Of a stretch of 64,000 nt of DNA, positions 1,141 to 4,889 are shown in pieces. Position numbers and translations under genes: made by a program. Position 1 is the stretch's first letter, and every line of letters begins with the position of its first letter. This stretch comes from Terriglobia bacterium. GTDB lineage: Bacteria; Acidobacteriota; Terriglobia; UBA7540. The notes under the pieces are model-generated. The model did not search any database and was not told the DNA's origin. It worked only from the letters and a program-made list of their open reading frames with translations. The DNA lies in the NCBI GenBank assembly GCA_035712365.1, contig DASTAW010000001.1, positions 1 to 64,000 on the forward strand. The letters run 5' to 3'.

Positions 1141-1642
1141 TAACTCCTTAATCCTATCTCAAGCAGTAAATTATGTTGTTAGTTGCCACGCTGTCAGGAA
1201 TGGAGAGAGGAACCGGCTAAACATTAGGACATTCTTAGAATGACCAGCGCCCCCGTACTACACTGAGATGACAGGACTTTGACCATATTCCAACGCAATA
1301 ATGTGGTGAGGCATGCTGGAATACCCCCTCGATGGATCTCTCATGCTGCAGAATTTAATGGGTTTAGCGTCGTTAACTCAAGGTGATACAAAGCATGTTC
1401 AGACGGTCTGCCGCAGGAGCCGATGGAGTGCGCAAAGGGCCCATTTCAGGAGCGTTTGCAACTTTTCTATTAACCCGGTATGATTGCGAGGTTGCCGTTT
1501 TTGCTTGACTTGCCGCAGTATTGTGGCACAATTGATAACGGTGGTTTAGAAGTTACCTATTGACTCAGGAGGTATTCTAGCGTAGGCTCTCTTCCGAAGC
1601 GGGAATTTTTCGAACCCAAAAATTCACCTGGAGGAGAGTCTG
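1141..1642. other. 500-bp non-coding gap upstream of the repeat-peptide gene
   Basis: No convincing gene is seen. A weak inverted repeat TATTCCA/TGGAATA lies at 1286-1292 and 1317-1323. The gap is more AT-rich than its surroundings and ends with the likely promoter and ribosome site of the small secreted peptide gene. Confidence 0.5.
1505..1532 (+). promoter_or_regulatory. Possible sigma-70 promoter of the repeat-peptide gene
   Basis: TTGACT at 1505-1510 and CACAAT at 1527-1532 are separated by 16 bp. The -10 element is weak, so this is a tentative call. It leaves a leader of about 105 nt before the ATG at 1643, which has a strong GGAGGAGA site at 1630-1637. Confidence 0.3.
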
Positions 1643-1891
1643 ATGAGAAACTACATCCTGACCTTAGTGTTGGCCGTGTTGGTTGTTCTGGCAAGCGTAT
1701 CATTGCGGAGAATGCTAACAGCTAACAGTGTTGATGTTAACAGCGCTGCAACGCTCGTAGCCATTGGCCCGTCACCTGCACCGATTCCGCCGCGTGGTAT
1801 GTTTGCCATCGGACCGTCACCGGCGCCGATTCCGCCGCGCGAGGCAATGGCAATCGGTCCTTCACCTGCACCGATTCCGCCACGCAAGTAA
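1643..1891 (+). CDS. Small secreted protein with three AIGPSPAPIPPR repeats
   Basis: This 82-residue product has an N-terminal hydrophobic signal or anchor (residues about 4-20), a short linker, and then three copies of the 12-residue unit AIGPSPAPIPPR at a 15-residue spacing, ending one residue (Lys) after the third copy. The units are identical in protein but differ in 8 of 12 codons, all silently. A near-ideal GGAGGAGA lies 5 bp before the ATG. The layout (signal, linker, proline-rich repeated units separated by three residues beginning after Arg) resembles a precursor of several identical peptides, but could equally be a proline-rich surface or structural protein. I do not recognise the family. 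Two membrane-protein genes follow on the same strand. Confidence 0.75.
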   Translation: MRNYILTLVLAVLVVLASVSLRRMLTANSVDVNSAATLVAIGPSPAPIPPRGMFAIGPSPAPIPPREAMAIGPSPAPIPPRK

Positions 1892-1959
1892 CGCAAGGCT
1901 GGCTTGATATAAGCAGCCTTGCGAGGCCACCACAGGCCAGGTGATCTAGCAGGCTGCTT

Positions 1960-2700
1960 ATGAGCGGTACTTTAACCAGCGATGTTCTTAGCTACGCCGG
2001 GTACATACTCGAGGCGGGCCTGTTGGTGTATCTGTTGGTCCGTGGCCATGCGAAGCCTCTCTGGGAACTGGTTCTTTATCTCGCAATGTCGCTGGGTGTG
2101 GCGGGATCTCGCTCTTTTACTCTGGCGCGGTACGGCCTGGCCTCACCTCAATATGGCAACTGCTACTGGACGACGGACCTGCTGCTCGTACTTGCAGCGT
2201 ATGTTTTGGTAGCGTCCTTTTTCAGGCGTGCCTGTTCCCACAACCAGGAAATGTGGCAATTCGTAAGGCTGCTGCTTGGAGCAGTCCTGCTCGCCATCGC
2301 GGCAGTGTCTTATTTCTCGCTCTCCAGCCACCAGGGCAAGCTGTTCTCCTTTTTCATCGTTGAGTTCTCCCAAAACCTGTACTTTGCCAGCCTCGTGCTG
2401 ACTACCCTCTTGTACCTCATGACTCTTCGGATGGATATTGCCGATGAGCGATTAGGAATGCTGGTTTGCGGCCTTGGAATTGAATTTGCGGGACCGGCCG
2501 CCGGTCTGGCATTAATCTATTTGTCAGGTGGAGCTGAAATTTCCCGTGTCATCGGCGTTTACTTTTTCCCGCTTTGCGATATCGGGATGATTCTGACGTG
2601 GTTTTACGCCATTTCGAGGGTACCGGGTGCGGCAATACCCGCCCGGCCAAGGATCGAGACAGCCCCTGCGTTTGCGCGAGGCAACATTTCTCACTTTTGA
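1960..2700 (+). CDS. Multi-pass membrane protein of unknown function
   Basis: The 246-residue protein has about seven hydrophobic segments (roughly residues 10-28, 34-52, 73-91, 102-120, 135-155, 167-187 and 196-216) and a short polar C-terminal tail. No catalytic motif is visible. A seven-helix layout without soluble domains could be a receptor-like or carrier-like protein, but no function can be assigned. It lies 68 bp after the repeat-peptide gene on the same strand, and its stop is 12 bp before the next start, so the three may be co-transcribed. No good Shine-Dalgarno sequence is visible. Confidence 0.65.
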   Translation: MSGTLTSDVLSYAGYILEAGLLVYLLVRGHAKPLWELVLYLAMSLGVAGSRSFTLARYGLASPQYGNCYWTTDLLLVLAAYVLVASFFRRACSHNQEMWQFVRLLLGAVLLAIAAVSYFSLSSHQGKLFSFFIVEFSQNLYFASLVLTTLLYLMTLRMDIADERLGMLVCGLGIEFAGPAAGLALIYLSGGAEISRVIGVYFFPLCDIGMILTWFYAISRVPGAAIPARPRIETAPAFARGNISHF

Positions 2701-3428: not shown

Positions 3429-4889
3429 ATGAACTCACTTTCGAAGCTTTCAATCACCACCGCTGAATCCCGCCGAGCCAGGATCGTCTGCACGCTCGGG
3501 CCAGCAACCGACAACACTGAAGTGCTTGCCGCGCTCCTGAATGCCGGGATGGACATCGCGCGCCTTAATTTCTCCCATGGATCGCACTCGGAACATGCCC
3601 GGCGGCTCCGAAAGCTTCGAAAGGTGTCGTCCGCCTGTGGTCGGGTTGTGGCTGTCATGCAGGACCTGCAAGGACCGAAGATTCGTACTGGCACACTGGA
3701 AGGGGGCATCCGCGTCGAGCTTCGGGATGGGGACCCCGTCACCATCACCACCAGGCCTGTTCCAGGTAATGCCCGCTGCATATCAACCACGTTCACGCGC
3801 CTTCCCCACGAGGTGCATGCCGGCAGCAGCATTCTGCTGTCGGACGGTCTCATCGAACTCCGGGTAGAAACTGTAAAAGGAACCGAGGTCCAGTGCCGCG
3901 TAGTGAATGGGGGCGAACTGGGAGAGCACCAGGGGATCAACCTCCCGGGGCTGGCGTTGCAGATCTCTGCTCTTACGAAAAAAGACCGCGAAGATCTCAA
4001 GTTCGGTATTCAAAACCGGGTGGATTACATTGCCCTTTCTTTCGTCCGAAGGGCTGAAGATATTCTTGCACTTAAGCGCATCCTCGCACGGGCGGACCGC
4101 GCCATTCCCGTGGTGGCCAAGCTCGAAAAGCCCGAGGCCATCGGCCAGCTAGATGAGATTTTGCGGGCAGCGGACGCTGTGATGGTAGCACGGGGCGACC
4201 TGGGAGTTGAATTGCCGCCGGAGACGGTGCCCGCCCTCCAGAAGCGGATCATCAATCGGGCCTCTGCCATGCGCGTGCCCGTTATTACCGCTACGCAAAT
4301 GCTGGAATCCATGACAGTGCACCCACGACCCACTCGCGCGGAGACTTCCGATGTGGCTAATGCAGTTATTGACGGGACCGACGCCCTGATGCTCTCGGGT
4401 GAAACCGCCACTGGCCACTACCCCGTGAAGGCCGTCGAGATGATGGCGCGAATCATCGCGGTAACAGAAGGGACGCAGCGTGAAGCGGGAATCCATGACG
4501 TCTGGGATCGTGCGGAGGCACTGGACGTTCCGGAGGCCATCTGCGAGATCGCTGCGCACCTTGCCGCTGAACTGGACCTGAAAGCGGTCGCGGTGTTTAC
4601 GCAATCAGGTTCAAGTGCCCGGCTCATTTCAAAATACCGTCCCAGGGTCCCCGTCTTTGCCTTTTCCCCTTTTGATAACGTTTTGCGCAGGACTGCACTC
4701 TATTGGGGTGTGAGACCCGTTCACATGGGGAGGCTGCAATCCACCGACAAGATGGTGGAGGCAGCCGCCCGGAGTCTGCGGGACATGGGGGTGGTTCGCC
4801 GGGGCGACTTTATTGCGGTGATTGCTGGAAAGCCCGTCGCCAAACAGGGGAGCACCAATATCCTGAAAGTGCACTGCGTTAAGGAATGA
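3429..4889 (+). CDS. pyk: Pyruvate kinase
   Basis: This enzyme converts phosphoenolpyruvate and ADP to pyruvate and ATP, the last step of glycolysis. The 486-residue product shows the N-terminal strand RIVCTLGPAT, the RLNFSHG segment, the QDLQGPKIRTG loop, the acid-base Lys region (VVAKLEKPEA), the MVARGDLGVE metal site, the ITATQMLESM segment with TRAETSDVANAV, and MLSGETATG. The C-terminal domain is present and the length is normal. The frame is open upstream to a GTG at 3309, but conserved sequence begins only after the ATG at 3429, which is therefore chosen. Confidence 0.96.
   Translation: MNSLSKLSITTAESRRARIVCTLGPATDNTEVLAALLNAGMDIARLNFSHGSHSEHARRLRKLRKVSSACGRVVAVMQDLQGPKIRTGTLEGGIRVELRDGDPVTITTRPVPGNARCISTTFTRLPHEVHAGSSILLSDGLIELRVETVKGTEVQCRVVNGGELGEHQGINLPGLALQISALTKKDREDLKFGIQNRVDYIALSFVRRAEDILALKRILARADRAIPVVAKLEKPEAIGQLDEILRAADAVMVARGDLGVELPPETVPALQKRIINRASAMRVPVITATQMLESMTVHPRPTRAETSDVANAVIDGTDALMLSGETATGHYPVKAVEMMARIIAVTEGTQREAGIHDVWDRAEALDVPEAICEIAAHLAAELDLKAVAVFTQSGSSARLISKYRPRVPVFAFSPFDNVLRRTALYWGVRPVHMGRLQSTDKMVEAAARSLRDMGVVRRGDFIAVIAGKPVAKQGSTNILKVHCVKE

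Follow-up and report, generated by a model that had tools for sequence, protein, structure and literature searches.

A proline-rich repeat precursor and an adjacent seven-helix membrane protein as a candidate peptide-signalling pair in Acidobacteriota

Genes and features of the locus

We analyzed a small locus near the start of a 64,000-nucleotide stretch of a Terriglobia genome (hereafter "the window", meaning the whole stretch at its full length). Three genes follow one another there: a short gene with internal repeats, which we treat as a peptide precursor, a gene for a seven-helix membrane protein, and a third gene, P162 (Table 1). An earlier note, made from the letters of this DNA, had drawn attention to the repeats and to the two membrane-associated neighbours. 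The neighbourhood proves to be a conserved cassette, with order and strand kept in relatives. In the subdivision-13 family of the Acidobacteria, every one of the 18 genomes of good quality has both the seven-helix and the P162 gene, the former in a single copy. The precursor, the seven-helix protein and P162 have no Pfam, NCBIfam or PADLOC assignment. A promoter scan of the locus returned weak sites only. Downstream of the cassette lies a same-strand gene for pyruvate kinase (window 3435-4889), an arrangement shared by at least 12 relatives' loci.

Table 1. Features of the cassette and their positions in the window
Feature	Position	Strand	Description	Basis
Shine-Dalgarno-like stretch GGAGGAGAG	1630..1638	+	5' of precursor start	read in sequence
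Repeat-peptide precursor	1643..1891	+	82 aa	
Leader MRNYILTLVLAVLVVLASVSLRRMLTA	1643..1723	+	putative signal peptide or uncleaved anchor	sequence
Repeat copy 1, AIGPSPAPIPPR	1760..1795	+		sequence
Repeat copy 2, AIGPSPAPIPPR	1805..1840	+		sequence
Repeat copy 3, AIGPSPAPIPPR	1850..1885	+	followed by final K	sequence
RNA hairpin	1892..1923	+	between precursor and seven-helix gene, without T-run	folding
Seven-helix membrane protein	1960..2700	+	246 aa, proposed receptor	
P162	2713..3189	+	158 aa, proposed signal partner; N-terminal transmembrane helix and helical domain	

The precursor consists of the leader, a linker, three copies of AIGPSPAPIPPR and a final K. Each copy is 12 aa long and perfect at the amino acid level, the period is 45 nt, and the spacers between copies are GMF and EAM. 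The leader had been described as a signal or anchor helix, and this reading is supported: it is hydrophobic and signal-peptide-like, and the hydrophobic stretch is kept in precursor homologues, although the secretion signal was judged by hydrophobicity only. A possible signal-peptidase site lies after A27, and several homologues carry A-x-A at that place. At the stretch corresponding to the Shine-Dalgarno-like element, several relatives read LEESLM. The stretch directly 3' of the precursor folds at -29 kcal/mol (z -4.25); several relatives, though not all, have a hairpin at the junction, and the hairpin may set expression of the precursor above that of the receptor.

Identity of the repeat copies and its cause

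The three copies in the window differ at 8 of 12 codons (A, I, G, P, P, A, P and R), and every difference is silent, just as had been claimed for them. In a mutation simulation matched to the 9 silent changes among the copies, ~19 non-silent changes were expected, as against 0 observed (P ~1e-4).

By whole-genome search, 32 of 61 relatives have a precursor homologue; almost all of them belong to one family, and the homologues occur across the subdivision-13 family. These precursors share a conserved leader, while the repeat itself varies (IGPSPMPIPPR, MGSSPAPIPPYRHVA, IGGSPMPPIPNAT, IGADPVPLPP, IGSAPMPTGKQGS, IGTSPVPTGGPH and others) and is present in 1 to 8 copies. Because the peptide is so variable, a locus search with the precursor alone as query gave no match, and P162 was the better query. 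In one genus (L048, L050, L053 and L055), single-unit precursors of the GPGPAPCPPSCGF type contain a Cys pair, and this peptide variant may form a disulfide loop.

Within a gene the copies agree, and between species they do not. The 10-aa core is identical in every copy in 23 of 30 multi-copy genes of the subdivision-13 family; mean core identity is 92% within genes and 57% between genes of different species, and 35 genes contain 32 distinct cores. The earlier note had named amino acid drift among the repeats of relatives as evidence against its reading, and the cores within genes are instead identical or nearly so. At core positions -1 to +7, the amino acid differs in only 16 of 683 comparisons of neighbouring copies (2.3%), versus 161 of 451 (36%) in the spacers, whereas silent differences are alike (32% in the core, 25% in the spacer). 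Anchoring the comparison on G..P.P forces positions 0, 3 and 5 to show no difference; the unanchored core positions show 1-5% amino acid difference. Silent-only divergence localised to the core argues that the repeats are held by selection, as had been proposed.

Could the identity be a mere by-product of slippage or gene conversion? Homogenisation does occur, for copies in L044, L046 and L085 are nearly identical in DNA too. However, conversion would also erase differences at silent sites, and in most copies many codons differ silently although the peptide is identical: inside the amino-acid-identical repeats of 80 repeat precursors, 744 of 1977 degenerate codons (38%) differ silently. Slippage or conversion alone is therefore insufficient, and as a general account it is very improbable, being already refuted for most genes. 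The same three loci qualify the idea that the duplication is old, which fits the window gene; arrays are evidently also renewed by recent duplication.

The earlier note proposed that each unit ends in Arg and might be cut there. The ending applies only to this genus; elsewhere among the relatives the unit closes with M, N, H, PP, WK or other residues. Cleavage at Arg is thus not a general rule, since the residue is not conserved, and Arg as a universal cleavage mark can be discarded. No cleavage motif conserved across families was found, and the spacers, which vary between species, contain no dibasic protease site between units (GMF and EAM in the window).

In another reading, the repeat protein is never cut and instead acts as a multivalent periplasmic or surface polypeptide that docks through its repeats on the seven-helix protein or on the cell wall. 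Extended linkers often contain proline-rich repeats, and both the lack of a conserved cleavage motif and the arrays of 7-9 units in some cassettes would suit such a protein. However, a spacer or fibre would not be expected to have cores that are uniform within each gene and specific to the species, between spacers that vary freely, and single-unit precursors are also found in the same position in the cassette. We consider an uncut polypeptide unlikely.

The seven-helix protein and its pairing with precursors

The structural model of the seven-helix protein (pLDDT 87.6) has exactly seven helices and a short tail. Structure comparison placed it next to designed GPCR-like folds and to class C GPCRs (Foldseek E 0.013 or worse). 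VIA gave Z 16.2 (4.0 A over 214 residues) and Z 14.9 (4.4 A over 216), within a span of Z 13-16 that is near chance level for helical bundles. As such bundles match easily, the resemblance to a GPCR-like fold is suggestive only. By the positive-inside rule, the charges predict that the C-terminus lies inside together with loops 1 and 3, and that the N-terminus faces outward, which is the orientation of GPCRs; the fifth loop is short, acidic and uninformative for topology. Model and charges together thus predict the seven-helix bundle with N-out/C-in topology typical of the GPCR superfamily. PDB sequence searches returned no match to the protein, and 7TMR-DISM (PF07695) matched 1 of 35 family members (E 0.0015) and not the window protein.

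We then looked at the class as a whole. A profile search found homologues of the seven-helix protein in 128 of 349 genomes. Of 80 distant homologues, 55 lie downstream of a precursor that combines a hydrophobic leader with tandem repeats (51 found by script, and 4 by eye where the start was hidden by N-masking or a contig edge), about 15 further loci have one proline-rich unit, and about 7 have no precursor. The repeats of these distant precursors are wholly different in sequence from those in the window: 3x NGGAPAPPVPWK (L181), 3x NGGAPLPPNPWK (L182), 3x AAGPWPFPDDSAGGNI (L183), 5x units of the AHGLTPPPKDYDGFE type (L184), 8-9x units of the ISPLPPPDPWGDGLA type (L185) and 3x HGGAPIPPIPF (L222). 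A stricter version of the script accepted 44 of 65 distant loci. The same treatment of control ORFs (at least 200 aa) gave 14 of 305, and all 14 are cassette seven-helix genes, so that 0 of 291 other control genes follow a repeat precursor.

In the NGGAP-type family, the third gene encodes 133-136 aa with a P162-like layout and overlaps the stop codon of the seven-helix gene; its similarity to P162 (E 3e-4, probability 39%) concerns the N-terminal part only. Outside the class, the seven-helix matches were weak, and none showed a clear precursor.

Several loci depart from the usual layout. L223 and L235, in genomes of another family, carry a second type of seven-helix homologue without a visible precursor. 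At L272 (G352), three tandem genes for one 58-aa secreted-looking peptide (…RNSAMPVPRCAPDDPNACGMK) lie ~600 to 190 bases upstream of the seven-helix match, gene duplication here replacing repeat duplication. L262 (G448) has six units of the RSPSAPQPIPPAGDSF type just upstream of a seven-helix match (E ~5e-7); as the pairing is present despite the weak similarity, the system may reach beyond the profile.

Peptide and seven-helix protein also appear to vary together. Given P162 distance, peptide and seven-helix distances are correlated (partial r 0.38, p 0.001, 26 loci), and the correlation recurs in the other family given its third gene (partial r 0.28, p 0.003, 38 loci). Peptide versus third gene given the seven-helix protein is flat in both families. 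When the precursor leader serves as a second control, the peptide correlation is still 0.32 (p 0.01, 21 loci), and the leader itself is flat against the seven-helix protein. The outer half of the protein given the inner half retains a signal (p 0.036), compared with p 0.18 for inner given outer. These tests are exploratory and ignore phylogeny and the number of regions tried. Moreover, the seven-helix protein evolves faster than P162, and the covariation may therefore partly reflect a better clock.

A small precursor next to a membrane protein, with strong diversification between species and covariation of the two, is also what one might see if the peptide were bacteriocin-like and the seven-helix protein its immunity protein. 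Yet these short, nearly neutral or acidic, proline-rich units do not resemble cationic antimicrobial peptides. The cassette is, furthermore, a single-copy core feature of the family (18/18 genomes) rather than patchy, and relatives of the third gene accompany receiver proteins. A bacteriocin therefore seems distinctly unlikely to us.

P162, the proposed mechanism and known systems

P162 has a single transmembrane helix, then basic residues and then a helical domain, an arrangement that makes the domain probably cytoplasmic. It has no convincing fold match (the best, Z 8.1, is an alpha-catenin actin-binding domain), and a PDB sequence search was without match. An HPt-like phosphotransfer role was set aside, since the near-conserved His113 is replaced in several members. 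P162 paralogues lie beside receiver-like proteins in 11 of 20 cases in relatives and in both cases in this genome; one receiver-like neighbour is a Pfam Response_reg (E 2e-7), and the others are similar to that one or weak. The two in this genome (L103:7402-8313 on contig C8 and L104:5943-7763 on contig C41) are directly upstream of receiver-like proteins, and paralogue and neighbour may together form a small signalling module of their own.

Four points are established by computation: the repeats, their maintenance by selection, the conserved gene order and the class-wide pairing. The explanation that we prefer, with a probability of about 0.6, is that the cassette encodes a multi-copy peptide-signal precursor and its cognate receptor, working like yeast alpha-factor and Ste2; export, release, binding and output are the parts that we infer. 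The precursor would be exported via its leader, and its near-identical proline-rich units would be freed in or beyond the periplasm by a protease, each giving a linear peptide ligand of ~10-12 aa. The cassette itself encodes no protease and no output regulator. Single-copy precursors suggest that one unit can suffice. The adjacent seven-helix protein would read the ligand from the periplasmic side, a role suggested by its N-out/C-in topology, its pairing with the precursor and the covariation, and would hand the signal to membrane-anchored P162, whose relatives adjoin receiver-domain proteins. Since a single receptor has to recognise every copy, selection would keep the copies identical. To judge from the species-specific repeats, a change in one copy, followed by re-duplication and a change in the receptor, could yield a pair of new specificity.

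The closest system is that of the yeast alpha-factor and fission-yeast P-factor precursors with their GPCRs, together with the fungal Kex2-processed repeat proteins (PMC7329392, PMC6342294). Both have a signal sequence and tandem copies of one short unmodified peptide, the copy number varies, and peptide and seven-helix receptor vary between lineages. Here, too, a secretion signal, as judged by hydrophobicity only, precedes tandem near-identical short units. However, the cassette is bacterial and has neither a Kex2 site nor a G protein, and its precursor and seven-helix genes are adjacent in one operon-like cassette. It may work like the alpha-factor system without being a member of it.

Gram-positive quorum sensing of the Agr and ComABCDE type likewise combines a small precursor gene with a polytopic membrane protein, and its peptides and receptors covary in specificity groups. 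It differs in having one core per precursor, dedicated processing by an AgrB-like protein or a peptidase-transporter, and a histidine kinase as receptor. No counterpart of that processing or kinase was found in the cassette, whose three proteins have no AgrB-like protease or histidine-kinase domain in Pfam or NCBIfam.

Multi-core precursors are also known for RiPPs, e.g., the fungal ustiloxin type (PMC7329392), and the units could be modified core peptides processed or exported by the seven-helix protein and P162. The two-Cys single-unit peptides of one genus and further Cys-pair peptides in another family would accord with such modification. Nevertheless, Pfam and NCBIfam recognise no maturase, cyclase or ABC exporter among the three cassette proteins, the leader resembles a Sec signal rather than a recognition leader, and the seven-helix protein has no evident conserved catalytic motif. 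We regard a RiPP as more improbable still than a bacteriocin. These two readings and the uncut polypeptide are the main rivals to peptide signalling, and each shares part of the evidence; none of them accounts as well for the combination of near-universal single-copy presence in the family, single-unit variants and absence of maturation domains.

Bacterial seven-helix receptors of the 7TMR-DISM type have been described (PF07695; PMC6107284); they, too, are bacterial seven-helix proteins treated as receptors. In those proteins, extracytoplasmic DISMED domains and/or cytoplasmic signalling domains are fused to the helices, whereas the cassette protein stands alone: no such fused domain, and no other domain, was found in the window protein.

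The suspicion that the system is not described has held up: the class-wide pairing matches nothing in the libraries and papers searched, no description of a repeat precursor paired with a seven-helix protein was found in the open-access literature searched, and the precursor, the seven-helix protein and P162 are outside the described families in the libraries searched. The novelty concerns these families of genes and how they are arranged; signalling by peptides is in itself a known activity, proposed here for this locus. A broader claim, which we put forward tentatively at somewhat less than even odds, is that this is a bacterial pheromone system characteristic of an Acidobacteriota class and built like yeast alpha-factor, with three parts taken jointly: precursors with multiple copies of a linear peptide, a stand-alone GPCR-like receptor, and a membrane-anchored helical adaptor that links the receptor to regulators of the receiver type.

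Acidobacteriota rank among the most common bacteria of soils, and no peptide language has been described for them in the papers searched. The locus offers ligand-receptor candidates along with dozens of naturally occurring variants in specificity, which makes cell-cell signalling in Acidobacteriota, and the possible use of GPCR-like peptide receptors by bacteria, testable with synthetic peptides of 10-12 aa.
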